Positions 32,146 through 64,000 of a stretch of 64,000 nt of DNA are shown in pieces. The stretch is from the NCBI GenBank assembly GCA_037576195.1, contig CM075104.1, positions 26,986,211-27,050,210 on the forward strand, written 5' to 3'. Source of the DNA: Phytoseiulus persimilis. Its lineage: Eukaryota; Arthropoda; Arachnida; Mesostigmata; Phytoseiidae. Every line of letters begins with the position of its first letter. Within the stretch, counting starts at the first letter, position 1. A program made the position numbers and the translations under genes. A model generated the notes under the pieces. That model saw only the letters and a list, made by a program, of their open reading frames with translations, had not been told where the DNA came from and did no database searches.

Positions 32146-32560
32146 CGGTTTTTGAAACTCCGAAAATCTTCGGGTTCCTTATTCCGAAGATTCTCGGAGT
32201 CGTCTTCGGCCATGGCCATGTGGATAGAACTCCGAAAATTTTCGGAGTCGTCTTCGGCCGTGGCCATGTGGATAGATCTCCGAAAACTCTCGGGTTCCCC
32301 AATCCGGAGATTTTCGGAGTCGTCTTTGACCTTGACTATGCGGATTGAGCTCCGAAAATCCTCGGGTTCCCCGATCCGGAGATTCTCGGAGTCGTCTTTG
32401 GCCATGGCTATGTGGATAGCACTCCGAAAATCCTCGGATTCCCCGATCCGGAGATTCTCGGAGTCGTCTTCGACCGTGTCAATGTGGACAGAACTCCGGA
32501 AATTCTCGGGTTCCCCATTCCGAAGATTTCCGGAGTCGTCTTCGATCGTGTCTGTTGAAG
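32146..32560 (+). repeat. 72-bp hairpin repeat (family B), block 1
   Basis: Tandem imperfect units share the arms CTCCGAAAATC and GATTTTCGGAG around a variable loop (often CTCGGGTTCCCCAATCC), joined by a spacer such as GTCTTCGGCCATGGC plus CATGTGGATAGA. One unit lost its loop, so the two arms are fused near 32240. The repeat keeps long open frames on both strands, giving for instance a 24-residue peptide period on the minus strand. I regard these frames as artefacts of the unit length. Confidence 0.85.
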
Positions 32561-32914
32561 AGGAAATTCGTCTTGAGTGGCACACTAGCTAGAGGGCTCC
32601 GTGCACAGGCAGATTCACCTCGCGGACACTGATACGGTAGCAAGGAGAAGACAGTACGGCGTATAGATGAACAGTAGTTTATTCGGGTGTGGAGTATGGT
32701 TATATGGGATGTGATTGGGAGAGTGAGAGTTGTTGAGTTGAGTCTTCGGGGAGTACTTCGAGGGTGTTAGTAATTACGGCACTAAGCCGGGGTTCTAAGG
32801 TTTTCTGATGGAAGGATTGATTACTTTGGCGCCTTGAGTGGCGTGGGTTCTAGTACGAACCGAGTCTGCTGAATCTAGATTCGGATGCATCCGCTTTCGC
32901 GTGTTGCATCTCAA
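32561..32914. other. spacer inside the family B region
   Basis: Unique-looking sequence lies between two family B blocks. No gene, RNA or repeat was recognised. Confidence 0.3.
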
Positions 32915-33110
32915 CAGTGTCAATGTGGATAGAACTCCGGAAATTCTCGGGTTCCCCAATCCGAAAATTTTCGGAGTCGTCTTTGGCCGTGGCTGTGTGG
33001 ATAGATCTCCGAAAATTATAGGGTTCCCCAATCCGGAGATTTTTGGAGTCGTCTTCGGCCGTGGCTATACGGATTGAACTCCGAAAATCGTCGGGTTCCC
33101 CAGTCCGAGA
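32915..33110 (+). repeat. 72-bp hairpin repeat (family B), block 2
   Basis: Nearly three units are in the same orientation as block 1, with GTGGATAGAACTCC, a loop containing CTCGGGTTCCCCAATCC, and TTTTCGGAGTCGTCTT. Confidence 0.85.
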
Positions 33111-33129
33111 ATTCCCAATGTTCTCTCGA

Positions 33130-33850
33130 CATATCCACGGCTGATTCCATTCTGAAAATTTCCGGATGGAGGAACCCGAGGATTTTCGAAGATCTATCCA
33201 CATAGCCACGGCTGCTTCCATTCCGAAATCTTCGGATGGAGGAACCCGAGGACTTTCGGAGTTCTACCCACAAAGGCACGGCTGATTCAATTCCGAAAAT
33301 TTCCGGATGAGGGACCCGAGGATTTTCGGAGATCTATCCACATGGCCACGGTTGAAGACGACTCCGAGAATCTTCGGATGGAGGAACCCGAGGATTCCTT
33401 GAGTTCTACCCACAAAGCCACGGCTGATTCGATTCCGCAAATTTCCGGATGAGGGACCCGAGGATTTTTGGAGTCCTGTCCTCAAAGCCAGGGCTGATTC
33501 CATTCGGAAAATCTTCGGATGGAGGAACCCGAGGATTCTCGGAGTTCTACCCACAAAGCCACGGCTGATTCAATTCCGAAAATTTCCGGATGAGGGACCC
33601 GAGGATTTTCGGAGTTCTATCCACATAGCCACTGCCAAAGACGACTCCGAGAATCTCCGGATCGGGGAACCCGAGGATTTTCGGAGTTCTACCCACAAAG
33701 CCACGGCTGATTTAATTTCGAAAATCTGCGGATGAAGGAACTCGAGGATTTTCGGAGTTCTATCCACGTAGCGAGGGCGGATTCAATTCCGAAAATCTCC
33801 GGATGAAGGAACCTGAGGATTTTCGGAGCTCTATCTACATAGCCACGGCG
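33130..33850 (-). repeat. 72-bp hairpin repeat (family B), block 3, inverted
   Basis: About ten units are reverse-complemented relative to blocks 1 and 2: spacer CTATCCACATAGCCACGG, arms GATTTTCGGAG and CTCCGAAAATC-type, loop GGAACCCGAG. The spacer varies between an ATTCCATTC type and a GACGACTCC type. Blocks 2 and 3 therefore meet head to head around 33110-33140. Confidence 0.85.
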
Positions 33851-37389: not shown

Positions 37390-37545
37390 CGGCAGAACTC
37401 GGATTTGGAAATCATCGGATTGATTAATCCGAAGATTGTCGGAATGATATCTAAACAGCCAGGACAGAATTCTATCCCGAGAATCATCGGAACGATGAAT
37501 CCGAGAATTATCCGAATGATATCGAGTGAATTTGTGGATGGGATT
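37390..37545 (+). repeat. diverged family B-like units
   Basis: Units alternate AATCATCGGA and ATCCGAAGATT-like arms (for example at 37411 and 37428, again at 37475 and 37498). They form imperfect inverted pairs like the neighbouring family B units but are clearly diverged. Confidence 0.5.
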
Positions 37546-38470
37546 CCGAAAATCCTCGGGCTCCTCCATGAAACGAGTTTCGGAGTCTGGTCTGGACGTG
37601 GCTGTGTGGATAAAGCTCCGAAAATCCTCGGGCTCCTCAATCCGAAGATTTTCGGAGTCTGATCTGGACGTGGCTGTGTGGATAAAACTCCGAAAATCCT
37701 CGGGCTCCTCCATGCAACGATTGTCGGAGTCTGGTCTGGACGTGGCTGTCTGGATAAAACTCCGAAAATCAGCTGGTTCCTCCAGGCAACGATTTTCGGA
37801 GTCTGATACGGACGTGGCTGTCTGGATAGAAGTCCAAGAATCCTCGGGTTCCTCAATCCGACGATTTTCGTAGTCTGATCTGGACGTGGCAGTGTGGATA
37901 AAACTCCGAAAATCCTCGGGCTTCTCCATGCAACGATTTTCGGAGTCTGGTCTGGACGTGGCAGTGTGGATAAAACTCCGAAAATCCTCGGGCTTCTCCA
38001 TGCAACGATTTTCGGAGTCTGGTCTGGACGTGGCTGTCTGGATAAAACTCCGAAAATCTTCTGGTTCCTCCATGCAACGATTTTCGGAGTCTGGTCTGGA
38101 CGTGGCTGTCTGGATAAAACTCCGAAAATCTTCTGGTTCCTCCATGCAACAATTCTCGGAATCTGATACGGACGTGGCTGTCTGGATAGAAGTCCGAAAA
38201 TTCTCGGGTTCCTCAATCCGACGATTTTTGGAGTCTGATCTGGACATGGCTGTGTGGATAGAAGTCCAAGAATCCTCGGGTTCATCAGTCCGACGATTTT
38301 CGGAGTCTGATCTGGACGTGGCTGTGTGGATAGAAGTCCGAAAATCCTCGGGTTCCTCAATCCGACGATTTTCGGAGTCTGATCTGGTCGTGGCTGTTTG
38401 GATAGAAGTCCGAGAATTCTCTGGTTCCTCAATCCGACGATTTTCGGAGTCTGATCTGGACGTGGCTGTT
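37546..38470 (+). repeat. 72-bp hairpin repeat (family B), main block
   Basis: About thirteen tandem units of 72 bp run here, the middle ones nearly identical. Each has GTGTGGATAAAACTCCG, arms CTCCGAAAATC and GATTTTCGGAG separated by about 22 bases (loop with CTCGGGCTTCTCCATGCAAC), and the spacer TCTGGTCTGGACGTGGC. The arms can pair into a 12-13 bp stem in every unit. Open frames of up to 488 codons run through it on the minus strand because 72 is divisible by three. The block ends abruptly at a copia-like fragment. Confidence 0.9.
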
Positions 38471-38533
38471 CCGAAACAGAAGCGCCGGGAAATTGATAAG
38501 AATGCAGAGAGAGGGTTCCTCGTTGGTTACGAT

Positions 38534-39245
38534 GGCGATGAGCGAAGCGCGTCATTTGGGCGCCGGCGTCGGTTGGGCTCCGGAGTCGATTGGGCGCCGG
38601 CGTCGGTTGGGCGCTGGCGTCAATTGGGCTCCGCCTCGAAGGTGGACTCGAGCTTGGGAATATGGTGGCCCTTGGAATATGATTCATCGCGTTCGAAATT
38701 TGATGAATGTACAAGACTATCCACGGGAGGGAGATAATTCGCTGAGCTGAGCGGCTGGCCCGCTCAATGAAACCCGAAAGACTCGCAAATCTAGATTTCA
38801 TCATCATCAACACATCGAAAGCGGAAAATGATCAAGGAGTGAAATTGTTCGGAAATGATCTCCGTGGCTCCCGTATTGAGCGGACGTATATTCGAATCCA
38901 TGCTCAACGGGCGTTTTCCCTCCATTCGCGTACTTCCGATGAGGGTCCATTCCTTCCGCGGAACCCTCCAGCCAGCGAAGACTATCGACGCATTTTCAGC
39001 GCATTCCCATGTTTGACGAAGCCGACAGATCGTCCCTTCAATGACCCGGAAGGACACGCTCCCACATTGTATGAGTGGGCTCTTCGCGGACGCAGCTGAG
39101 TGTATTGTGGGTATGATGACAGCACACAGGGACGACCCTGCGCTGGGGCCCAATTGACGCTGGCGCCCAATTGACGCTGGCGCCCAACTGACGGCGGAGC
39201 CCAATCGACGCCGGCGCCCAATTGACGTGCACCGGGCGATGAGCG
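38534..39245. mobile_element. foldback-like non-autonomous DNA element with inverted arrays of a 17-bp repeat
   Basis: The insert splits the copia integrase/RT reading frame and is flanked by a perfect 11-bp duplication GGCGATGAGCG (38534-38544 and 39235-39245). Each end carries tandem 17-bp units: left (about 38551-38636) reads GCGCCGGCGTCGGTTGG, GCTCCGGAGTCGATTGG and similar; the right end (about 39141-39234) is the same array inverted, for example CCAATTGACGCTGGCGC. About five units per end make terminal inverted repeats of roughly 90 bp. The 500-bp interior has a 110-codon frame (38767-39099) with no recognisable transposase. This organisation is that of foldback elements, and the duplication length (9-11 bp) fits. 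Confidence 0.75.
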
Positions 39246-39252
39246 GTACAGG

Positions 39253-40242
39253 GTGTATGTTCAGAATATCCATGGAGTTGTTGTCTCAAGAGATGTCGAG
39301 TTTCAGGAAAGACTCCTAGAGTGCGGAGTGGGAGTGAGGTTGCCGTTCAAAGACAAAGTGCAGGAGGAGCACGGAAAAATAGAGGAAGACGAAGAAGAGA
39401 AGAAAGACAAGGCTGAGCTGAAGCCAGACGAGGATCCTCATGAAGGAGAAGAGGGAATAGATCTTGAGGGGAAGAGCAACAGCAGAGAATGTGAAGAGGC
39501 AGCCACGAGTGAAGAAAGAGGTGGCGTTGACTCACAAGGCCCAACTTTGTGGAAGTCGTTTCTGAGGAATCCGCTTGCGCGGAAAAAGCCTGCATACCTA
39601 GATGATTTCGGGACGAGTTACGAAATCTGGAATCTATTTGCAGCCCCTCAAACCTATGCAGAAGCGATTCAAAGTGATGAGAGTGTCGAATGGCTGAAAT
39701 CCATGGAGTCTGAGCTGGCATCGCTCGAGGAGAACGAGACATGGGACGTGGTAGATCTTCCACAAGGAGCAAAGGCGCTCCCATGTAAATGGGTGTTACG
39801 AGTGAAAGACACTCTGGATGGAAAGATTGAAAGGTATGAAGCCAGATTGGTGGTAAAAGGGTTCAGTCAGAGATTCGGAATGGACTACAAAGAGACTTTC
39901 AGCCCTGTTGCCAAGCTGGCAACCATGCGCTCTATTCGTATGACGTATGGCGCAAACGAAGGGTTACATCTTGGACAGTTTAATGTAACCACGGCGTTCC
40001 TATACGGGGAACTGAAGAAAGATTTCGAAAATATGAAGGGTCCAGAGGGTTCCGAATTCTCGGATGGGAAAGTTCGCAAGCTCAAGCGTAGCTTATACGG
40101 TTTGAAACAAGCTCCCAGACGCTGGAACATACAGGGTGGTCATCGTAAGTCGGGAACTTTCTTACCCTCTCTTCTTTTGCTCATAACCTCACAACTCGGT
40201 GAAAAATGGTCGGATTCTGGAAAATCTTTTTGCGTTCGATAG
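39253..40242 (+). pseudogene. copia-like polyprotein fragment: integrase tail and N-terminal reverse transcriptase
   Basis: The fragment resumes the copia reading frame after the foldback insert. It shows an acidic linker region, then the copia RT entry WLKSMESELASLEENETWDVV, KWVLRVKDTLDG, ARLVVKGFSQRFGMDYKETF, FNVTTAFLYGEL and KRSLYGLKQAPRRW. After RRW the frame leaves homology and runs into unrelated sequence, so the palm catalytic Asp-Asp is absent. It is non-functional. Confidence 0.85.
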
Positions 40243-41507: not shown

Positions 41508-41830
41508 GATAGAACTCCGAGAATCCTGTTGTTTTCGGTGCAGCCTCCCTGACCAGCCCGTCGGGACGCTCCGCGAGAGCTTCCCGATTCGGAGATTTTC
41601 GGACTTGAACCAGCCGTGGCCACGTGGACAGAATTCCGAAAAACCTCGGGTTACCCAATTCGGAGATTTTCGGAGCATATCTGGACGTGGCTGTGTAGAG
41701 AGAACTCCGAAAATCCTCCGGTTGCCCAACTCGGCGATTTTCGGAGTCTAATCTGGACGTGGCCGTGTAGAGAGAACTCCGAAAATTCTCGGGTTACCCA
41801 AATCGGAGATTTTTGGAGTTGAATCAGTCC
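41508..41830 (+). repeat. 72-bp hairpin repeat (family B), block after the copia remnant
   Basis: The block starts GATAGAACTCCGAGAATC directly after the LTR and continues with units such as GAATTCCGAAAAACCTCGG and TTTTCGGAGTCTAATCTGG. Orientation matches the main block left of the copia remnant, as expected if the element split one array. Confidence 0.8.
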
Positions 41831-47636: not shown

Positions 47637-48665
47637 ATTCCCAACTCTGGAGGGGTGGTTTCGGGACCAATCTGACCATTTTTCTCCAACTCTGGAGGGG
47701 TGATTCTGCGACCAATCTGACCCTTATTTTCCAACTCTGGAGGGGTGATTCCGAGACCAATCTGACCATTATTTTCCAACTCTGGAGGGATGATTTCTGG
47801 ACCAATCTGAGCATTACTTTCCAACTCTGGAGGGTTGATTCCGGGACCAATCTGACCATTACTGTCCAAGCCTGTAAGGTTGATTCCGGGACCAATCTGA
47901 CCATTATTTTCCAACTCTGGAGGGGTGATGCCGAGACCAATCTGACCATTACTGTCCAAGCCTGTAGGGGTGATTCCGGGACCAATCTGACCATTATCTT
48001 CCAACTCTGGGGGGGGGGGGGGTGATTGCGAGACCAATCTGACCATACTTTTCGAAACCTGAAGGGGTGATTCCGGGACCAACCTGACCATGCTTTTTCA
48101 ACTCTCGAGGGGTGATTCCGACACCGATCTGACCGTGCTTTTTCAAGTCTGGAGCGGTGATTCCAAGACCAATCTGAGCATTACTTCCCAACTCTGGAAG
48201 GGTGATCCCGAGACCATTATTTTCCAAATCTGGAGGGGTGATTCCGAGAACAATCCGACCATTACTTTCCAAGCCTGGAGGGGTGATTCCAAGACCAATC
48301 TCACCATGCTTTTTCAAGTCTGGAGGGTTGATTCCGGGACCAATCTGAGCATTACTTTCCAACTCTGGAGGGTTGATTCTGGGACCACTCTGACCATTAC
48401 TGTCCAAGCCTGTAGGGGTGATTCCGGGACCAATCCGAGCATTACTTTGCAAGTCTGGAGGAGCGATTCCGAGACCAATTCGACCATCACATTCAAACTC
48501 TGGAGGGGTGATTCCGGGACCAATCTGAACATTATTTTCCAACCCTGGAGGGTTGATTCCGGGACCAATCTGAGCATTACCTTCCAACTCTGGAAAGGTG
48601 ATTCCGGGACCAATCTGAGCATCACCTTCCAACTCTGGAAAGGTGATTCCGAGACCAATCTGAGT
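47637..48665 (-). repeat. 45-bp satellite, reverse orientation, diverged edge block
   Basis: About 23 units in reverse orientation (TTCCAACTCTGGAGGGGTGA ... ACCAATCTGACCATTA). They differ from one another mainly by substitutions, with sub-variants such as CCAAGCCTGTAGGGGTG recurring at 47866, 47956 and 48404. One unit (about 48008-48022) has its G run expanded to about 14. The block continues the four units left of the LINE, so the LINE split one array. Confidence 0.92.
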
Positions 48666-51600
48666 TGAAAATCAATGGTCTGATTGGTCCCGGAATCACC
48701 CCTCCAGAGTTGGAAAGTAATGGTCAGATTGGTCCCGGAATCAACCCTCCAGAGTTGGAAAATAATGGTCAGATTGGTCCCCGAATCACCCCTCCAGAGT
48801 TGGAAAGTAATGCTCAGATTGGTCCCGGAATCACCCCTACAGGCTTGGGAGTTGGAAAGATTTTGGAAAGTAATGGCCAGATTGGTCTCGGAATCACCCC
48901 TCCACAGTTGGAAAGTAATGGTAATGGATTGGTTTCGGAATCACCCCAGTAATGGTCAGATTGGTCCGGAATCACCCCTCCAGAGTTGGAAAGTAATGGT
49001 CAGATTGGTCTCGGACCACCCCTCCAGAGTTGGAAAATAATGGCCAGATTGGTCTCGGAATCACCCCTCCAGAGTTGGAAAGTAATGGCCAGATTGGTCT
49101 CGGAATCACCCCTCCAGAGTTGGAAAGTAATGGCCAGATTGGTCTCGGAATCACCCCCTCCAGAGTTGGAAAGTAATGGCCAGATTGGTCCGGAATCACC
49201 CCTCCAGAGTTGGAAAGTAATGGTCAGATTGGTCCGGAATCACCCCTCCAGAGTTGGAAAGTAATGGCCAGATTGGTCGGAATCACCCCTCCAGAGTTGG
49301 AAAGTAATGTCAGATTGGTCCCGGAATCACCCCTCCAGAGTTGGAAAGTAATGGCCAGATTGGTCTCGGAATCACCCCTCCAGAGTTTGGAAGTAATGGC
49401 CAGATGGGTCTCGGAATCACCCCTCCAGAGTTGGAAAAGTAATGGCCAGATTGGTCTCGGAATCACCCCTCCAGAGTTTGGAAAGTAATGGCCAGATTGG
49501 TCTCGGAATCACCCCTCCAGAGTTGGAAAGTAATGCCAGATTGGTCCGGAATCACCCCTCCAGAGTTGGAAAGTAATGTCAGATTGGTCTCGGAATCCCC
49601 CCTCCAGAGTTGGAAAGTAATGGCCAGATTGGTCTCGAATCACCCCTCCAGAGTTGGAAAGTAATGTCAGATTGGTCTCGGAATCACCCCTCCAGAGTTG
49701 GAAAGTAATGGCCAGATTGGTCTCGGAATCACCCCTCCAGAGTTGGAAAGTAATGGCCAGATTGGTCTCGGAATCACCCCTCCAGAGTTGGAAAAAAGTA
49801 ATGGCCAGATTGGTCCCGGAATCACCCCTCCAGAGTTGGAAAGTAATGGCCAGATTGGTCTCGGAATCACCCCTCCAGAGTTGGAAAGTAATGGCCAGAT
49901 TGGTCTCGGAATCACCCCTCCAGAGTTGGAAAGTAATGGTCAGATTGGTCTCGGAATCACCCCTCCAGAGTTGAGTAATGGCCAGATTGGTCTCGGAATC
50001 ACCCCTCCAGAGTTGGTAATGGCCAGATTGGTCTCGGAATCACCCCTCCAGAGTTGGAAAGTAATGGCCAGATTGGTCTCGGAATCACCCCTCCAGAGTT
50101 GGAAAGTAATGGCCAGATTGGTCCCGGAATCACCCCTCCAGAGTTGGAAAGTAATGGCCAGATTGGTCCCGGAATCACCCCCCTCCAGAGTTGGAAAGTA
50201 ATGGCCAGATTGGTCTCGGAATCACCCCTCCAGAGTTGGAAAGTAATGGCCAGATTGGTCTCGGAATCACCCCTCCAGAGTTGGAAAGTAATGGCCAGAT
50301 TGGTCTCGGAATCACCCCTCCAGAGTTGGAAAGTAATGGCCAGATTGGTCCCGGAATCACCCCTCCAGAGTTGGAAAGTAATGGCCAGATTGGTCTCGGA
50401 ATCACCCCTCCAGAGTTGGAAAGTAATGGCCAGATTGGTCTCGGAATCACCCCTCCAGAGTTGGGAAGTAATGGCCAGCCAGATTGGTCTGGACACCCGA
50501 AAAATGCTCGTTTGAGATCCAGAGTGGGAAAGTAATGCCAGATTGGTCTCTCGGATCACCCCTCCAGAGTTGGAAAAAATGGCCAGATTGGTCTCGGAAT
50601 CACCCCTCCAGAGTTGGAAAGTAATGGCCAGATTGGTCTCGGAATCACCCCCTCCAGAGTTGGAAAGTAATGGCCAGATTGGTCTCGGAATCACCCCTCC
50701 AGAGTTGGAAAGTAATGGCCAGATTGGTTGGTCCCGGAATCACCCCTCCAGAGTTGGAAAGTAATGGCCAGATTGTGGTCTCGGAATCACCCCTCCAGAG
50801 AGTTGGAAGAAAGTAATGGCCAGATTGGTCTCGGAATCACCCCCTCCAGAGTTGGAAAGTAATGGCCAGATTGGTCTCGGAATCACCCCCCTCCAGAGTT
50901 GGAAAGTAATGGCCAGATTGGTCTCGGAATCACCCCCCTCCAGAGAGGAAAGTAATGGCCAGATTGGATTGGTCTCGGAATCACCCCTCCAGAGTTGGAA
51001 AAATGGTCAGATTGGTCCGGAATCATTGGAAGAGAATCACCCGTCTAATGGCCAGATTCCAAATACCCTCCTCCGGAATCCCCAAGTTGGAAAATAATGC
51101 CAGATGGTCTCCGGAATCACCCCTCCAGAGTTGGAAAGTGGATGGCCAGATTGGTCTCGGAATTGGTCTCGGAACCCCTCCAGAGTTGGAAAGTAATGGC
51201 CAGATTGGTCCCGGAATCACCCCTCCAGAGTTGGAAAGTAATGGCCAGATTGGTCTCGGAATCACCCCTCCAGAGTTGGAAAGTAATGGCCAGATTGGTC
51301 TCGGAATCACCCCTCCAGAGTTGGAAAGTAATGGCCAGATTGGTCCCGGAATCACCCCTCCAGAGTTGGAAAGTAATGGCCAGATTGGTCTCGGAATCAC
51401 CCCTCCAGAGTTGGAAAGTAATGGCCAGATTGGTCTCGGAATCACCCCCTCCAGAGTTGGAAAGTAATGGCCAGATTGGTCTCGGAATCCCCTCCAGTTG
51501 GAAAGTAATGGCAGAGATTGGTCCCGGAATCACCCCTCCAGAGTTGGAAAGTAATCAGATTGGTCTCGGAATCACCCCTCCAGAGTTGGGAAAGTAATGG

Positions 51601-54600
51601 CCAGATTGGTCGGAATCCCCCCCCAGAGTTGGAAAGTAATGATTGCCAGATTGGTCTCGGAATCACCCCCTCCCAAAAACCCTAATGGCCAGATTGGTTC
51701 GGGAATCACCCCCAGAGTTGGAAGAATAACCAGATGGTCTCGGAATCACCCCTCCAGAGTTGGAAAGTAATGGCCAGATTGATTCTCGGAATCACCCCTC
51801 CAGAGTTGGAAAGTAATGGCCAGATTGGTCCGGAATCAATCCCCCTCCAGAGGTTGGAAAGTAATGGTCAGATTGGTCTCGGAATCACCCCTCCAGAGTT
51901 GGAAAGTAATGCCAGATTGGTCCCGGAATCACCCCTCCAGAGTTGGAAAGTAATAATGGCCTGATTGGATTGGTCCGGAATCACCCCTCCAGAGTTGGAA
52001 AGTAATCACCAGATTGGTCTCAGATCATCCCCAGAGTCCAGAGGAAAGTAATGGCCAGATTGGTCCGGAATCCCCTCCAATGAAACCCCAGTCACCCCTC
52101 CAAGTTGGAAGTAATGGCCAGATTGGTCTCTCGGAATCACCCCTCCAGAGTTGGAAAGTAATGGCCAGATTGGTCTCCGGAATCACCCCTCCAGAGTTGA
52201 AAAAGTAATGGCCAGATTGGTCTCGAGAATCACCCCCCCCAGATGGAGAAGTTTGGAAAGTAATGCCAGATTGGTCTCGGAATCACCCCTCCAGAGTTGG
52301 AAAAGTAATGGCCAGATTGGTCCGGAATCACCCCTCCAGAGTTCAAGTGGCCAGATTAATGGCCAGAGACCCCCTCGGAATCACCCCTCCAGAGTTGGAA
52401 AGTAATGGCCAGATTGGTCTCGGAATCACCCCCTCCAGAGTTGGAAAGTAATGTGCCAGATGGTCCCGGAATCACCCCTCCAGAGTTGGAAAAGTAATGC
52501 CAGATTGGTCCAGATCCCCCGGAATCACCCCCCAGAGTTCAGATTGGTCTCGGAATAATGGCCAGATTGGCCAGATTGGTCCGGAATCACCCCTCAGAGT
52601 TGGAAGTAATGGCCAGATTGGTATGAGAATCAGCCCTCCAGTTGGAAAGTAATCACCGCTGCCGACCCCCCCGGGGTTGGAAAGTAATGCTCAGATTGCT
52701 GGACAGATCACCCCTCATGTAGAGTTGAGGAAAGTAATGGCCAGATTGGTCTCGGAAACCCCCCCTCCAGAGTTGGGAAATAATGGCCAGATTGGTCTCG
52801 GAATCACTCTCCAGAGTTGGAAAGTAATGGTCCAAGTAATGGTAATCAGATTGGTCTCGGAATCACCCCTCCAGAGTTGGAAAGTAATGGCCAGATTGGT
52901 CTCGGAATCCCCCTCCAGAGTTGAAAAGTAATGGCCAGATTGGTCTCGGAATCACCCCTCCAGAGTTGGAAAGTAATGGCCAGATTGGTCTCGGAATCAC
53001 CCCTCCAGAGTTGGAAAGTAATGGTCAGATTGGTCCGGAATCACCCCACCCCTCCAGAGTTGGAAAAGTAATGGTCAGATTGGTCTCGGAATCACCCCTC
53101 CAGAGTTGGAAAGTAATGGCAGATTGGTCTCGGAATCACCCCTCCAGAGTTGGAAAGTAATGGCCAGATTGGTCCCGGAATCACCCCTCCAGAGTTGGAA
53201 AGTAATGGCCAGATTGGTCTCGGACCCCCCCCAGAGTTGGAAAGTAATGGCCAGATTGGTCTCGGAATCACCCCTCCAGAGTTGGAAAGTAATGGCCAGA
53301 TTGGGAATCCCGGAATCCCCCCCCTCCAAAGTTGGGCCAATTAATGGCCAGATCACCCCAGAGTTCGGAATCACCCCTCCAGAGTTGGAAAGTAATGGCC
53401 AGATTGGTCCGGAATCACCCCTCCAGTTGGAAAGTAATGGCTCAGATTGGTCTCGGAATCACCCCTCCAGAGAGTTGGAAAGTAATGGCCAGATTGGTCT
53501 CCGGAATCACCCCTCCAGAGTTGGAAAAGTAATGGCCAATTGGTCTCGGAATCACCCCTCCAGAGTTGGAAGTAATGGCCAGATTGGTCCCGGAATCACC
53601 CCTCCAGAGTTGGAAAGTAATGGCCAGATTGGTCCCGGAATCACCCCTCCAGAGTTGGAAAGTAATGGCCAGATTGGTCCCGGAATCACCCCTCCAGAGT
53701 TGGAAAGTAATGGCCAGATTGGTCTCGGAATCACCCCTCCCAGAGTTAAAGTAATGGCCAGATTGGTCTCGGAATCACCCCTCCAGAGTTGAAAAGTAAT
53801 GGCCAGATTGGTCTCGGAATCACCCCTCCAGAGTTGGAAAGTAATGGCCAGATTGGTCTCGGAATCACCCCTCCAGAGTTGGAAAGTAATGGCCAGATCG
53901 GAATCACCCCTCGGAATCACCCCTCCAGAGTTGGAAAAAAGTAATGGCCAGATTGGTCCGGAATCACCCCTCCAGAGTTGGAAAGTAATGGCCAGATTGG
54001 TCTCGGAATCACCCCTCCAGAGTTGGAAAGTAATGGCCAGATTGGATCCTGAATCACCACCCCTCCAGAGTTGGAAAAATGGCCAGATTGGTCCCGGAAT
54101 CACCCCTCCAGAGTTGGAAAGTAATGGCCAGATTGGTCTCGGAATCACCCCTCCAGAGTTGGAAAGTAATGCCCCAGATTGGTCTCGGAATCACCCCTCC
54201 AGAGTTGGAAAGTAATGGCCAGATTGGTCTCGGAATCACCCCTCCAGAGTTGGAAAGTAATGGCCAGATGGTGGTCCCGGAATCACCCCTCCCCCTCCAG
54301 AGTTGGAAAGATGGCCAGATTGGTCTCGGAATCACCCCTCCAGAGTTGGAAAGTAATGGCCAGATTGGTCTCGGAATCACCCCTCCAGAGTTGAAAGTAA
54401 TGGCCAGATTGGTCCGGAATCACCCCTCCAGAGTTGGAAAGTAATGCCAGATTGGTCTCGGAATCACCCCTCCAGAGTTGGAAAGTAATGGCCAGATTGG
54501 TCTCGGAATCACCCCTCCAGAGTTGGAAAGTAATGGCCAGATTGGTCTCGGAATCACCCCTCCAGAGTTGGAAAGTAATGGCAGAGATTGGTCTCGGAAT

Positions 54601-57600
54601 CACCCCTCCAGAGTTGGAAAGTAATGGCCAGATTGGTCCGGAATCTCCCCTCCAGAGTTGGAAAGTAATGCTCCAGATTGGTCCCGGATCCCCTCCAGAG
54701 TTGGAAAGTAATGGCCAGATGGTCTCGGAATCACCCCTCCAGAGTTGGAAAGTAATGGCCAGATTGGTCTCGGAATCACCCCTCCAGAGTTGGAAAGTAA
54801 TCAGATTGGTCAGAATTGGTCTCCAGGAATCCCCCCCAGAGTTGGAAAGTAATGGCCAGATTGGTCTCGGAATCACCCCTCAGAGAGTTGGAAAAGTAAT
54901 GGCCAGATTGGGTCCGTCACCCCAGAGTTGGAATCACCCCCAGAGTTGAGTTGGAAAGAATCCAGATTGGCCAGATTGGTCCGGAATCACCCCTCCAGAG
55001 TTGGTGGAAATGGCCAGATTGGTCCCGGAATCACCCCTCCAGAGTTGGAAAGTAATGGCCAGATTGGTCTCGGAAATCACCCCTCCAGAGTTGGAAAAAG
55101 TAATGGCCAGATTGGTCCGGAATCACCCCTCCAGAGTTGGAAAGTAATGGCCAGATTGGTCTCGGAATCACCCCTCCAGAGTTGGAAAGTAATGGCCAGA
55201 TTGGTCTCGGAATCACCCCTCCAGAGTTGGAAAGTAATGGCCAGATTGGTCTCGGAATCACCCCTCCAGAGTTGGAAAATGGCCAGATTGGTCTCGGAAT
55301 CACCCCTCCAGAGTTGGAAAGTAATGGCCAGATTGCCAGATTGGTCCGGAATCACCCCACCCCTCCAGAGAAGTTGGAAAGTAATGGAGTAATGGCCAGA
55401 TTAACCTCGGAATCACCCCTCCAAGTTGAAAGTAATGGCCAGATTGGTCTCGGAATCACCCTCCAGAGTTGGAAAGTAATGGCCAGATTGGAATCCAGAA
55501 TCACCCCTCCAGAGTTGGAAAGTAATGGCCAGATTGGTCTCGGAATCACCGGAATCACCCCTCCAGAAAGTAATGGCCAGATTGGTCCCGGAATCACCCC
55601 TCCAGAGTTGGAAAGTAATGGCCAGATTAATGGCCAGATTGGTCCGGAATCACCCCTCCAGAGTTGGAAAGTAATGGCCAGATTGGTCCCGGAATCACCC
55701 CTCCAGAGTTGAAAAGTAATGGCCAGATTGGTCTCGGAATCACCCCTCCAGAGTTGGAAAGTAATGGCCAGATTGTCTCCCGGAATCACCCCTCCAGAGT
55801 TGGAAACCCCTGGCCAGATTGGTCCTCGGAATCACCCCTCCAGAGTTGGAAAGTAATGGCCAGATTGGTCTCGGAATCACCCCTCCAGAGTTGGAAAGTA
55901 ATGGCCAGATTGGTCGGAATCACCTCCAGAGTTGGAAAGTAATGGCCAGATTGGTCCCGGAATCACCCCTCCAGAGTTGGAAAGTAATGGCCAGATTGGT
56001 CTCGGAATCACCCCTCCAGAGTTGGAAAGTAATGGCCAGATTGGTCTCGAATCACCCCCCTCCAGTTGGAAAGTAATGGCCAGATTGATTGGTCTCGGAA
56101 TCACCCCTCCAGAGTTGGAAAGTAATGGCCAGATTGGTCTCGGAATCACCCCTCCAGAGTTGGAAAGTAATGGCCAGATCCCCCCCTCGGAATCACCCCT
56201 CCAGAGTTGGAAAGTAATGGCCCAGATTGGTCCCCCGGAATCACCCCTCCAGAGTTGGAAAGTAATGGCCAGATTGGTCTCGGAATCACCCCTCCAGAGT
56301 TGGAAAGTAATGGCCAGATTGGTCTCGGAATCACCCCTCCAGAGTTGGAAAGTAATGGCCAGATTGGTCCGGAATCACCCCTCCAGAGTTGGAAAGTTGG
56401 AAAGTAATGGCCAGATTGGTCTCGGAATCACCCCAGAGTTGGAAAAAGTAATGGCCAGATTGGTCTCCGGAATCACCCCTCCAGAGTTGGAAAGTAATGG
56501 CCAGATTGGTCCCGGAATCACCCCTCCAGAGTTGGAAAGTAATGGCCAGATTGGTCCCCCGGAATCACCCCTCCAGAGTTGGAAAGTAATGGCCAGATTG
56601 GTCCCGGAATCACCCCTCCAGAGTTGGAAAGTAATGGCCAGATTGGTCCCGGAATCACCCCTCCAGAGTTGGAAAGTAATGGCCAGATTGGTCCGGAATC
56701 ACCCCTCCAGAGTTGGAAAGTAATGGCCAGATTGGTCTCGGAATCCCCCCCCTCCAGAGTTGGAAAGTAATGGCCAGATTGGTCCGGAATCACCCCTCCA
56801 GAGTTGGAAAGTAATGGCCAGATTGGTCTCGGAATCACCCCTCCAGAGTTGGAAAGTAATGGCCAGATTGGTCCGGAATCAATCCCCCCAGAGTTGGAAA
56901 GTAATGGCCAGATTGGTCTCGGAATCACCCCTCCAGATTGGAAAAAATGGCCAGATTGGTCCGGAATCACCCCTCCAGAGTTGGAAAGTAATGGCCAGAT
57001 TGGTCCCGGAATCACCCCTCCAGAGTTGGAAAGTAATGGCCAGATTGGTCCGGAATCACCCCTCCAGAGTTGGAAAGTAATGGCCAGATTCCCCTCCGGA
57101 ATCGGAATCACCCCTCCAGAGAGTTGGAAAGTAATGGCCAGATTGGTCTCGGAATCACCCCTCCAGAGTTGGAAAGTAATGGCCAGATTGGTCTCGGAAT
57201 CCCCCTCCAGAGTTGGAAAGTAATGGCCAGATTGGTCAGATCCGGAATCCCCCCCTCCAGAGTTGGGACCGGTAATGGTAATGGCCAGATTGGTCTGGAA
57301 ATCACCCCCAGAGTTCCAGAGTTGAAATGGCCAGATTCATGAAATCCCCAGTTGGTTGGAATCACCCCTCCAGAGTTGGAAAGTAATGGCCAGATTGTCT
57401 CGGAATCACCCCTCCAGAGTTGAAAGTAATGGCCAGATTGGTCCCGGAATCACCCCTCCAGAGTTGGGAAAGTAATGGCCAGATTCCCGGAATCCCCCCT
57501 CCCCCTCCAGAGTTGGAAAGTAATGGCCAGATTGGTCTCGGAAATCCCCCTCCAGAGTTGGAAAGTAATGGCCAGATTGGTCCCGGAATCACCCCTCCAG

Positions 57601-60600
57601 AGTTTGGAAAGTAATGGCCAGATTGGTCTCGGAATCCCCCTCCAGAGTTGAAAAATAATGGCCGAATTCCCCTCTCGGAATCACCCCTCCCAGAGTTGGA
57701 AAGTAATGGCCAGAATGGCCATCATCTCCCCCTCCAGAGGTAATGGCCAGAATCACCCCGGACCCCTCCAGAGTTGGAAAGTAATGGCCAGATTGGTGGT
57801 CCGGAATCCCCCCCCCTCCAGAGTTGGAAAGTAATGGCCAGATTGGTCTCGGAATCACCCCTCCAGAGTTGGAAAGTAATGGCCAGAGGTCCGGAATCAC
57901 CCCTCCAGAGTTGGAAAGTAATGCCCAGATTGGTCCCGGAATCACCCCTCCAGAGTTGGAAAGTAATGGCCAGATTGGTCTCGGAATCACCCCTCCAGAG
58001 TTGGAAGTAATGGCCAGATTGGTCTCGGAATCACCCCTCCCCCAGTTGGAAAAGTATTGGCCAGATTGGTCTCGGAACCCCTCCAGAGTTGGAAAGTAAT
58101 GGCCAGATTGGTCCGGAATCCCCCTCCAGAGTTGGGAAAGTAATGGCCAGATTGGTCCCGGAATCACCCCTCCAGAGTTGGAAAGTAATGGCCAGATTGG
58201 ATTCCCGGAATCACCCCTCCAGAGTTGGAAAGGAAAGTAATGGCCGATGGCCAGATTGGACCCCTCGGAATCACCCCCCCAGAGTTGGAAAGTAATGGCC
58301 AGATTGGTCTCCGGAATCCCCCCCCTCCAGAGTTGGAAAGTAATGGCCAGATTGGTCTCGGAATCACCCCTCCAGAGTTGGGAAGTAATGGCCAGATTGG
58401 TCTCGGAATCACCCCTCCAGAGTTGGAAAGTAATGGCCAGATTGAATCTCGGAATCCCCTCCAGAGTTGGAAAGGAATGGCCAGATTGGTCTCGGAATCA
58501 CCCCTCCAGAATTTTTATGAAGAATGGCCAGATGGGAGGATCACCAGGGGAGAGATGGAAAGGATATCCGATGACGGATGAGAATGGAGTCTGGCCAGAA
58601 AGTTCAATAACTCCAATATGTCACCTCGGAATCATCCTCAGAATTGGAATGGTAATGGATGACAGTATGGATGGTCTCGGAATCACCCCTCCAGAGTTGG
58701 ATTGGAGTAATGGCCAGATTGGTCTCGGAATCACCCCTCCAGAGTGGAAAGTAATGGCCAGATTGGTCTCGGAATCACCCCTCCAGAGTTGGAAAGTAAT
58801 GGCCAGATTGGTCTCGGAATCACCCCTCCAGAGTTGGGAAAATGGCCAGATCTCAGGATCACCCCCCCAGAGTTAATGGCCAATCACCCCGGAATCACCC
58901 CCAGAGTTGGAAAGTAATGGCCAGATTGGTCCCAAACTCCCTCAGAGTTGGAAAGTAATGGCCAGATTGGTCCTCGGAATCCCCTCCAGAGTTGGGAGAA
59001 TGGCCAGATTGGTCTCGGAATCACCCCTCCAGAGTTGGGTAATGGCCAGATTGGTCTCGGAGAGATTGGATTGGTTGGAATGGATCCAGATTGGTCTCGG
59101 AATCACCCCTCCAGAGTTGGTTGGAAAGTAATGGCCAGATTGGTCTCGGAATCACCCCTCCAGAGTTGGAAAAAGTAATGGCCAGATTGGTCTCCCGATG
59201 GAACCCCTCAGAGTTGGAAAGTAATGGCCAGAATCGGAATGAAAGAGAATCAGATTCTCCAGTCTCGGAATGGCCAGACCCCTCCAGAGTTGGAAAGTAA
59301 TGGTCAGAATTGGTCCGGAATCACCCCTCCAGAGTTGGAAAGTAATGGAATCAATTAATGGCCAGATTCACCCCCGGAATCACTCCGATCCAGAGTTGGA
59401 AAGTAATGGCCAGATTGGTCCGGATGGTCATCACCCCTCCAGAGTTGGAAGCCCCCCAGATGGTCTCGGAATCACCCCTCCAGAGTTGGAAAGTAATGGC
59501 CAGATTGGTCCGGAATCCCCCCTAAGAGTTGGAAAGTAATGGCCAGATTCACCCCGGAATCACCCCTCCAGAGTTGGAAATTAATGGCCAGATTGGTCCC
59601 AAGAATCCCCCTCCAGACCAATTAATGGCCATCCACCCCGGAATCACCCCTCCAGAGTTGGAAAGTAATGGCCAGATTGGTCCGGAATCACCCCTCCAGA
59701 GTTGGAAAGAATGCCAGATGGGTGGATTGGTCCCGGAATCCCCCCTCCAGAGTTGGAAAGTAATGGATCCAGATTGAGTCCGGATCACCCCTCCAGAGTT
59801 GGAAAGTAATGGCCAGATTGGTCCGGAATCACCCCTCCAGAGAGAAAGTAATGGAGGATTGTCCCGGAATCACCCCCTTGGAGAGTGGAAAAAGTAATGG
59901 CCAGATGGTCCGGAATCCCCTCCAGAGTTGGAAAGTAATGGCCAGATTGGTCTCGGAATCCCCCTCCAGAGTTGGAAAGTAATGGCCAGATTGGTCTCGG
60001 AACCCCCCCCCCCCAGAGTTGGAAAGTAATGGCCAGATTGGTCTCGGAATCACCCCTCCAGAGTTGGAAAGTAATGGCCAGATTGGTCTCGGAATCACCC
60101 CTCCAGAGTTGGGAAATGGTCCATGGATTGGTCTCGGAATCACCCCTCCAGAGTTGGAAAGTAATGGCCAGATTGGTCTCGGAATCACCCCTCCAGAGTT
60201 GGAAAGTAATGGCCAGATTGGTCTCGGAATCACCCCTCCAGAGTTAGTAATGGCCAGATGGCGTTCGGAATTGGTCTCCGGAATCACCCCTCCAGAGTTG
60301 GAAAAGTAATGGCCAGATGGGTCTCGGAATCACCCCTCCAGAGTTGGAAAGTAATCCCCAGATTGGTCTCGGAATCCCCCCTCCAGAGTTGGAAAGTAAT
60401 GGCCAGATTGGTCTCGGAATCACCCCTCCAGAGTTTGGAAAGTAATGGCCGGATTGGTCTCGGAATCACCCCTCCAGAGTTGGAAAGTAATGGCCAGATT
60501 GGTCTCCAGAGGAACCCCTCCAGAGTTGGAAAGTAATGGCCAGATTGGTCTCGGAATCACCCCTCCAGAGTTGGAAAGTAATGGCCAGATTGGTCTCGGA

Positions 60601-63600
60601 ATCACCCCTCCAGAGTTGGAAAGTAATGGCCAGATTGGTCTCGGAATCACCCCTCCAGAGTTGGAAAGTAATGGCCAGATTGGTCTCGGAATCACCCCTC
60701 CAGAGTTGGAAAGTAATGGCCAGATTGGTCTCCCGGAATCACCCCTCCAGAGTTGGAAAGTAATGGCCAGATTGTCTCGGAATCCCCCCCTCCAGACCCC
60801 TCCAGAGTTGGAAAGTAATGGCTCAGATTCCTCGGAATCACCCCTCCAGAGTTGGAAAAGTAATGGCCAGATTGGAAAGTCCCGGAATCACCCCTCCAGA
60901 GTTGGAAAGTAATGGCCAGATTGGTCCGGAATCCCCCTCCAGAGTTGGAAAGTAATGGCCAGATTGGTCTCGGAATCCCCCCTCCAGTTGGAAAGTAATG
61001 GCCAGATTGGTCTCGGAATCACCCCTCCAGAGTTGGAAAGTAATGGCCAGATTGGTCGGAATCCACCCCTCCAGAGTTGGAAAGTAATGGCCAGATTGGT
61101 CTCGGAATCACCCCTCCAGAGTTGGAAAGTAATGGCCAGATTGGTGGTCCGGAATCCACCCCTCCAGAGTTGGAAAGTAATGGCCAGATTGGTCTCGGAA
61201 TCACCCCTCCAGAGTTGGAAAGTAATGGCCAGATTGGTCTCGGAATCACCCCTCCAGAGTTGGAAAGTAATGGCCAGATTGGTCTCCATCATCCCCCCCC
61301 CCAGAGTTGGAAAGTAATGGCCAGATTGGTCTCGGAATCACCCCTCCAGAGTTGGAAAGTAATGGCCAGATTGGGTCTCGGGAATCACCCCTCCCAGAAG
61401 TTCCCTCGGAATCATCAGAGTTCCAGATTGGTCCAGAATCACCCCTCCAGAGTTGAAAAAGTAATGGCCAGATTGGTCTCGGAATCACCCCTCCAGAGTT
61501 GGAAAGTAATGGCCAGATTGGTCCGGAATCCCCCCTCCAGAGTTGGAAAAAGTAATGGCCAGATTGGTCTCGGAATCACCCCTCCAGAGTTGGAAAGTAA
61601 TGGTCAGATTGGTCCGGAATCACCCCTCCAGAGTTGGAAAAGTAATGGTCGAGATTGGTGGTCCGGAATCACCCCTCCAGAGTTGGAAAGTAATGGCCAG
61701 ATTGGTCTCGGAATCACCCCTCCAGAGTTGGAAAGTAATGGCCAGATTGGTCTCGGAATCACCCCTCCAGAGTTGGAAAGTAATGGCCAGATTGGTCTCG
61801 GAATCACCCCTCCAGAGTTGGAAAGAATGGTAATGGCCAGATTGGTCTCGGAATCACCCCTCCAGAGTTGGAAAAGTGGCCAGATTGGTCTCGGAATCAC
61901 CCCTCCAGAGTTGGAAAGTAATGGCCAGATTGGATCTCGGAATCACCCCCCTGGAGTTGGAGTTGGAAACCGATGGGATGTTGCCAGATTGGTGGCGGAA
62001 TCACCCCGGAGAGGATGGAAAGTAATGTCAGATTGGTCCCGGAATCCCTGGATCCAGTTGGAAAGTAATGGTCCAGATTGGTCTCGGAATCACCCCTCCA
62101 GAGTTGGAAAGGAAGGGGAATGGTCTCGGAATCACCCCTCCAGAGTTGAAAGTAATGCCAGATTTTCCCGGAATCACCCCTCCAGAGTTGGAAAGTAATG
62201 CCAGATTGATCCGGAATCAATCCCCCCTCCAGAGTTGACAAAGTAATGGCCAGATTGGTCCGGAATCCCCTCCAGAATCACCCCTAATGGAGATTGGAAA
62301 GTTGGAATGGCCAGATTGGTCCCGGAATCACCCCTCCAGAGTTGGAAAGTAATGGCAGATTGGTCCCAGAATGGACAGAGTTGAAGAAAGTAATGGCCAG
62401 ATTGGTCTCGGAATCACCCCTCCAGAGTTGGAAAGTAATGTCCAGATTGGTCCGGAATCACCCCTCCAGAGTTGGAAATGGAAAGTAATGGCCAGATTGG
62501 TCTCCCGGAATCACCCCTCCAGAGTTGGAAATCAAATGATTCAGATTGGTTCGGAATCATCCCCCTCCAGAGTTGGAAAGTAATGGCCAGATTGGTCTCG
62601 GAATCACCCCTCCAGAGTTGGAAAGTAATGGCCAGATTGGTCTCGGAATCACCCCTCCAGAGTTGGAAAGTAATGGCCAGATTGGTCTCGGAATCACCCC
62701 TCCAGAGTTGGAAAGGAATGGCTCAGATTGGTCTCGGAATCACCCCTCCAGAGTTGGAAAGTAATGGCCAGATTGGTCTCGGAATCACCCCTCCAGAGTT
62801 GGAAAGTATGGCCAGATTGGTCTCGGAAATCACCCCTCCAGAATTGGTCTCTCGGAATCACCCCTCCAGAGTTGGAGGAATGGCCAGATTGGTCTCGGAA
62901 TCACCCCTCCGGTGGAAAGTAATGGCCAGATTCACCTCGGAATCACCCCTCCAGAGTTGGAAAGTAATGGCCAGATTGGTCTCGGACCCCACCCCCCTCC
63001 AGAGTTGGAAAGTAATGGCCAGATGGGTCTCGGAATCACCCCTCCAGAGTTGGAAAGTAATGGCCAGATTGGTCTCGAATCATCCCCCCTCAGAGTTGGG
63101 AAAGTAATGGCCAGATTGATCACCCTCGGAATCACCCCTCCAGAGTTGGAAAGTAATGGCCAGATTGGTCGTTGTGGAATCACCCCTCCAGAAAGAAATG
63201 CCCAGATTGGTCTCCAGAATCACCCCTCCAGTTTGGAAATGGCCAGATTGGTCTCGGAATCACCCCTCCAGAGTTGGAAAGTAATGGCCAGATTGGTCCC
63301 GGAATCACCCCTCCAGAGTTGGAAAGTAATGGCCCATTGGTCCCGGAATCACCCCTCCAGAGTTGGAAAGTAATGTCAGATTGGTCCGGAATCACCCCTC
63401 CAGAGTTCCAGAATGGAAAGTCCCGGAATGGCCAGATTGGTCCGGAATCACCCCCCAGAGTTGGAAAGTAATGGCCATTGCCAATGGTAATGGAATCCGG
63501 AATCCTCCCCCTCCAAGTTGGAAAATAATGGCCAGATTGGTCTCGGAATCACCCCTCCAGACAGAACCCCAAGTAATGGCCAGATTGGTCATCCGAATCA

Positions 63601-64000
63601 CCCCTCCAGAGTTGGAAAGTAATGGCCAGATTGGTCTCAGAGAGAATCACCCCTCCAGAGTTGGAAAGTAATGGCCAGATTGGTCCCTCGGAAGAATCAC
63701 CCCTCCAGAGTTGGAAAGTAATGGCCAGATTGGTCCGGAATCACCCCTCCAGAGTTGGAAAGTAATGGCAGAGATTGGTCTCGGAATCACCCCTCCAGAG
63801 TTGGAAAGTAATGGCCAGATTGGTCTCGGAATCACCCCTCCAGAGTTGGAAAGTAATGGCCAGATTGGTCTCCGGAATCACCCCTCCAGTTGGAAAGTAA
63901 TGGCCAGATTGGTCTCGGAATCACCCCTCCAGAGTTGGAAAGTAATGGTCAGATTGGTCCCGGAATCACCCCTCCAGAGTTGGAAAAATGGCCAGATTGG
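48666..64000 (+). repeat. 45-bp satellite array, forward orientation, continuing past the window end
   Basis: About 340 head-to-tail units of 45 bp run to the last base of the window. Landmarks in each: AATGGCCAGATTGG, GGTCTCGGAATC (sometimes GGTCCCGGAATC), CACCCCTCCAGAG and TTGGAAAGTAAT. The first seven or so units (to about 48990) are diverged like those of the neighbouring inverted block; the rest are nearly identical apart from many small deletions, insertions and partial duplications. Because 45 is divisible by three, two forward frames stay open (for example SNGQIGLGITPPELE repeated) and so do reverse frames. These are not evidence of a gene. No other feature is embedded, except a more scrambled stretch at about 58510-58680. 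Confidence 0.95.

Follow-up and report, generated by a model that had tools for sequence, protein, structure and literature searches.

What interrupts the copia remnant at this locus of the Phytoseiulus persimilis genome, and what could have moved it there? We analysed a 64,000-nt stretch of contig CM075104.1 (the window; L-numbered loci are places fetched from the same genome), in which an earlier note had read the insert as a Foldback-like transposon. The results below make us confident that the insert is a Mutator-like (MULE) DNA transposon with Foldback-type ends, non-autonomous owing to an internal deletion; long copies of the family encode a FLYWCH and MULE transposase.

Insertion into the copia remnant

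The copia remnant lies on the plus strand in two pieces defined by alignment to empty sites, one 5′ of the insertion (38470-38542) and one 3′ of it (39235-40140), the latter with an RVT_2 domain within 39601-40140 (E 8.4e-34). Direct checking of the letters confirmed an 11-bp direct repeat at 38534-38544 and 39235-39245, which the earlier note had taken for the duplication made upon insertion. The true target-site duplication, however, is the 9-bp GGCGATGAG, with its left copy at 38534-38542 and its right copy at 39235-39243, as judged from the direct repeat, the empty site and the other copies of the element. The 11-bp version was rejected, because the element starts with CG and the same two letters happen to come after the target site. 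Likewise, the insert noted as 690 bp is real, its exact size being 692 bp (38543-39234).

The copia flank has relatives elsewhere in the genome. The two flanks, joined over a single copy of GGCGATGAG, aligned without a break to three of these (L043, L044 and L045, 93% each) and also to the more distant L046 (81%). The insertion into copia was thus precise, since the uninterrupted site is present in paralogous copia copies. By inspection, the joined pieces form one frame (...GFLVGYDGDE / GDERYRVYVQN...), as the note had proposed; but insert and duplication together add 701 bp, so that the frame is shifted rather than kept across the insertion.

The surroundings are rich in repeats. A tandem array with a 72-bp unit (37545-38469) interrupts the 5′ side of the copia remnant directly before the split piece, and further arrays with 71-72-bp units lie at 32183-33849 and 41583-41818. 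Most of 47641-64000 is a degenerate 45-bp satellite, and similar units were seen at the beginning of contig C1 (L066) as well as close to L047 and L060. Three contig ends were checked for five types of telomere repeat, none of which formed a run there. The GC content of the window is 48-52%.

Anatomy of the element

The element (38543-39234) is placed on the plus strand, following the direction of the transposase in the long copies L010-L012; its limits come from the copies, the ends and the alignment to L012. It begins with the 9-bp 5′ terminal motif CGAAGCGCG (38543-38551, plus strand), which in many copies reads CGGAGCGCG. The motif is followed by the 5′ array of five 17-bp units, roughly TCRRTTGGGCGCYGGCG (38552-38636, plus strand). 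At the other end, the 9-bp 3′ terminal motif, CGGTGCACG when read inward (39226-39234, minus strand), is preceded by the 3′ array of five 17-bp units in inverted orientation (39141-39225, minus strand). Both motifs were delimited by end analysis and genome matches, and both arrays by tandem-repeat and end analysis, together with arm complementarity for the 3′ one. Each end is therefore a 9-bp motif and then five inward-pointing units; the arms are 86 bp each, 85% complementary and 512 bp apart, and the description of the ends as opposed arrays of about five 17-bp units holds. The interior (38637-39140, plus strand) has two parts which, by alignment to L012, match the stretches on either side of the transposase gene of the long copy, with a deletion junction at about 38886.

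Copies across the genome

At least 115 pieces matching the element were found in the 181-Mb genome. The 3′ terminal 20-mer matched 24 genomic places and the 5′ terminal 20-mer 29 (up to two mismatches), as compared to 0 and 1 place, respectively, for the reversed-pattern controls; C1:7270416, where the L024 copy has its 5′ end, was common to both lists. We surveyed termini and duplications in the window and 26 fetched loci. Both termini were present in 15 of these 27 sequences, and 12 had no intact pair. Exact duplications flank 13 of the 15 two-terminus copies, window included, being 9 bp long in 10 cases and 8 bp in three (L010, L019 and L029), within the 8-10 bp typical of MULEs; the two others have a 9-bp repeat with one mismatch (L027) and a 10-bp repeat one base off (L013). 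Every one of the 13 exact duplications has a different sequence. Many copies with common ends and short flanking duplications, the finding that the note had looked for, are thus present, and the Foldback-like reading stands as a multi-copy family with fixed ends, duplications and inverted unit arrays.

The window copy differs from that in L014 at only 2 of 692 positions, and from that in L018 at 18. The window and L014 copies occupy different target sites, therefore the family has moved, and recently, as far as sequence can tell. Three of the copies closest to that of the window (L015, L016 and L017) are nested in a single amplified repeat of 2.24 kb and do not count as independent insertions; their 3′ ends are missing the final 8 bp. 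Among arms with an intact terminus the number of units ranges from 2 to 9 (four in the 5′ arm of L024), and even the near-identical L010, L011 and L012 have 8/9, 9/8 and 8/9 units. Foldback elements are defined by this structure, inverted ends that consist of a variable number of short tandem units.

Long copies and their transposase

The note had asked for a longer copy with a transposase reading frame and the same ends. L010, L011 and L012 are such copies: each is 2,939 bp long, with pairwise identity of 99.1-99.7% over aligned stretches, termini the same as in the short element, and open transposase frames. We ran Pfam on the ORFs of the long copies L012, L009 and L013. The two ORFs of L012 match the FLYWCH zinc finger (PF04500, E 2e-8, above the cut-off), located N-terminally, and the end of the MULE domain (PF10551), which at E 1.7e-5 and 25.6 bits falls just under the cut-off of 27.6. 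L009 gave FLYWCH above the cut-off (E 2.8e-8) and MULE with E 4.8e-5. It keeps its 5′ terminus, and the terminal-motif search found no match to the 3′ terminus at that locus. In L013 the second ORF is interrupted by a stop; the ORFs of this copy match MULE at E 0.17 only, and FLYWCH was not found in them. The only other Pfam matches in these three sets of ORFs were two weak unrelated ones, and a scan of viral contigs revealed no relatives of the second transposase ORF.

The two ORFs can be joined over a 119-bp GT-AG intron predicted from the sequence. The putative splice site is one of four joins that keep the frame open, picked by eye because it continues the frame where the MULE domain would go on. 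Counted from the first Met, the predicted protein is 478 residues long in all three of L010-L012, and it contains a D-62-D-134-E triad, a His at +24 from the second Asp and a Trp at -18 from the Glu. By sequence, the family is Mutator-like, with a MULE-type triad and a domain that in the family itself scores just under the cut-off, and most resembles the Phantom/Muta type.

Origin of the short element

The window element aligned to L012 in two blocks, 93-344 to 235-507 and 344-685 to 2522-2864. Both blocks meet at one point of the element (344), and about 2,014 bp of L012 are missing between them. The short element thus has the ends of a coding copy and has lost the gene across a single junction, which bears out the proposal of a non-autonomous insert with no transposase. 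Nineteen places, including the window and the three nested copies, are continuous across the deletion junction. In contrast, six loci break at the junction, namely the five long copies and C1:8974432-8986755. Because continuity and breakage fall at the same point, the short lineage probably goes back to a single deletion. The two halves of C1:8974432-8986755 (L032-L033) lie about 12 kb apart and were taken as one element; this is probably one more long copy, into which something else may have inserted later.

Related MULEs in the same genome

A genome search with the second transposase ORF gave 148 matches, of which 18, mostly stronger ones, were fetched. Inverted tandem arrays with a period of 15-17 bp lie on both sides of the gene in 13 of the 18 loci (L047, L048 weakly, L049, L050, L051, L052, L053, L054, L058, L060, L061, L062 and L063). 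Several of these are 84-99% alike in their transposases, so that about seven groups can be told apart among the 13; as compared to the focal family, identity goes down to 30% (L061) and 29% (L063). Inverted arrays at both ends were not found in the other five: L056 and L057 have no arrays, in L064 their place is taken by a long simple inverted repeat, L059 has an array on one side, and the arrays of L055 do not flank the gene as an inverted pair. Among seven related ORFs searched with Pfam, six scored above the cut-off for MULE and three for FLYWCH (L047, L051 and L053). A search for a solved structure with the one ORF tried (L051) found none.

Flanking direct repeats were looked for at 14 related loci. 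Pairs fitting 9-bp duplications against the ends were found at L047, L049, L051, L060 and L061, and shorter or less exact pairs at L052, L053, L058, L063 and L064. The pair at L048 does not abut the element ends, and none was found at L050, L054 and L062. Random placement gave a pair of at least 8 in 70 of 2,000 draws (some draws skipped). By eye, the terminal motif upstream of the gene in L047, L053 and L058 differs from that in L012, L051 and L060. In the former three (711-5675 in L047), the two unlike terminal motifs have traded places with respect to the direction of the transposase, which suggests that the interior was inverted between the two arrays.

Where consensus units were obtained for both arms, they agree within the element, apart from rotation and differences at a few letters. 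The units of L047 and L060 resemble the focal unit more than shuffled units do (0 of 300 shuffles as high). Homology of the array units was rejected for the other five of seven families, since shuffled units scored as high in 102 (L051), 61 (L053), 162 (L058), 115 (L061) and 298 (L063) of 300 cases. Across eight families, unit similarity correlates with transposase similarity (Mantel r 0.72; 10 of 5,000 permutations as high), a result that is suggestive only, because the families share ancestry. For the part of this genome's MULE radiation that we examined, it is quite possible, though slightly less than probable, that the Foldback ends are old and have been kept. The inverted layout and the 15-17-bp period would then persist between transposases that are no more than about 30% identical, whereas the letters of the unit would change in step with the transposase, and in both arms at once. 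On this view the arrays are a series of transposase binding sites that co-evolve with the enzyme, and recombination between them would flip the interior, as in L047, L053 and L058.

Alternative explanations

Could the insert be something other than a MULE, or other than a transposon? Galileo, a P element, also has long repetitive inverted ends (PMC3688188), therefore architecture alone cannot name the transposase, and a Foldback-like element of another superfamily, such as a P element of the Galileo type whose ends are repeat arrays, has to be considered. L012, with the same ends as the insert, nevertheless encodes FLYWCH and a MULE match, and THAP, the domain expected of a P-type transposase, was not found at E up to 1 in the ORFs of L009, L012 and L013. 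The 9- or 8-bp duplications, moreover, are of MULE size as described in PMC3169594 and PMC5225508. We consider this origin extremely improbable. Equally improbable is an origin without transposition, in which the copia copy received a minisatellite pair or a segmental duplication, as might be imagined for a locus rich in tandem repeats and for a family in which L015-L017 spread inside a larger repeat. That explanation is refuted by the precise empty site in the copia paralogues and by the different duplication at each of the 13 sites with fixed termini; the coding partner with the same ends also argues against it.

A third alternative concerns the arrays and not the identity of the element: they may be tolerated by-products of end repair or gene conversion, and not sites bound by the transposase. 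The free variation in unit number, next to more constant outermost 9-bp motifs, is in keeping with this, as are the units of the five related families that come no closer to the focal unit than shuffled ones. Against it, inverted 15-17-bp arrays were kept in 13 of 18 related MULE loci despite their different unit letters, and unit similarity tracks transposase similarity, albeit among families of shared ancestry. In addition, the array repeats of Galileo hold binding sites for its THAP domain (PMC3688188). We therefore regard by-product arrays as unlikely, though with more in their favour than the two preceding alternatives.

Proposed mechanism

We prefer the reading that the arrays serve the transposase. 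By analogy with Galileo, where the THAP sites sit in tandem repeats, we infer that the transposase of the long copies would recognise the 17-bp units, probably several together. It would then pair both ends, excise the element and reinsert it at a staggered cut of 9 bp, sometimes 8 bp. The short copy was presumably mobilised in trans by the long-copy transposase, since it keeps both terminal motifs and arrays and has lost the gene alone. Array length changes in steps of one unit or more, for which slippage or unequal exchange is the presumed cause. The family may still be active.

Comparison with known systems

Drosophila Foldback elements (FB/NOF) have inverted ends made of short tandem units in variable number. 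The present family resembles them in this feature, going by the general description of FB/NOF. Some Foldback elements have been grouped with Mutator (PMC3169594). The earlier note held that such elements are poorly catalogued outside Drosophila and a few other groups; they are known, however, from nematodes (Tm1) and from Aedes (Muta1 and other families). Its claim of an undescribed family may thus hold for this family itself; it fails for the kind of element. Among the open-access literature matches listed, no title or abstract start dealt with such elements in a mite.

The closest description is that of Muta1 from Aedes aegypti, which its authors term a type 2 Foldback element (PMC5225508). 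Muta1 is about 3 kb long, encodes a FLYWCH and DDE transposase of 504 aa predicted from two exons, makes 8-9-bp duplications and has derivatives with variable unit numbers; each end is a 9-10-bp motif followed by an array of nine 12-bp repeats with 3-4-bp spacers (PMC5225508). The present family, likened by description, shares the length of about 3 kb, the two-exon FLYWCH and DDE protein of some 500 aa (478 aa predicted, against 504), the size of the duplications, the variation in unit number and the plan of the ends. The catalytic triad of Muta1 is D214, D283 and E419 (spacing 69/136), and H307 and W401 are essential (PMC5225508). His and Trp in L010-L012 lie at the same distances (+24 and -18), whereas the triad spacing of 62/134 is close and not equal. 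Further differences from the published description are the period of 17 bp as opposed to 12-bp repeats with spacers, and the two terminal motifs, which in the present family, unlike in Muta1, differ from each other. The activity of Muta1 was tested in yeast, whereas the present family is known from sequence alone. In Ae. aegypti, subterminal tandem repeats are reported for 10 of 12 families with long TIRs (PMC5225508).

Tm1 of root-knot nematodes, as described, has 1-9 tandem units, mostly of 14 bp, 9-bp duplications, a Phantom-like FLYWCH/MULE transposase and short non-coding derivatives (PMC3169594). It shares with the present family Foldback-type ends, duplication size, the FLYWCH/MULE kind of transposase, short derivatives and a different motif at each end; in M. 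incognita one of the two terminal motifs starts with CGGT, as does the present 3′ end. The 14-bp unit has another sequence than our 17-bp unit. Tm1 is represented by a single transposase element and shows signs of senescence (PMC3169594), whereas the present family has three near-identical long copies, open frames and recent insertion. Phantom elements have 8-10-bp duplications, inverted repeats of 18-613 bp, FLYWCH in some members and hosts that include arthropods (PMC6446971); FLYWCH, duplication size and arthropod hosts are the likeness here, again by description. Galileo, of the P superfamily, has long, internally repetitive inverted ends likewise (PMC3688188; see also PMC3573991), while its transposase is unrelated to the present one.

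In itself, the family is an ordinary addition to the Foldback-type MULEs of mosquitoes and nematodes. It is, however, well preserved: the transposase frames of its long copies are open, its short derivatives are recent, and the empty site is precise. Its graded relatives in the same genome, with their differing arrays, make a natural set for following joint change in a transposase and its putative multi-copy binding array, and the persistence of the arrays across related families while the unit sequence changes is the most interesting point.
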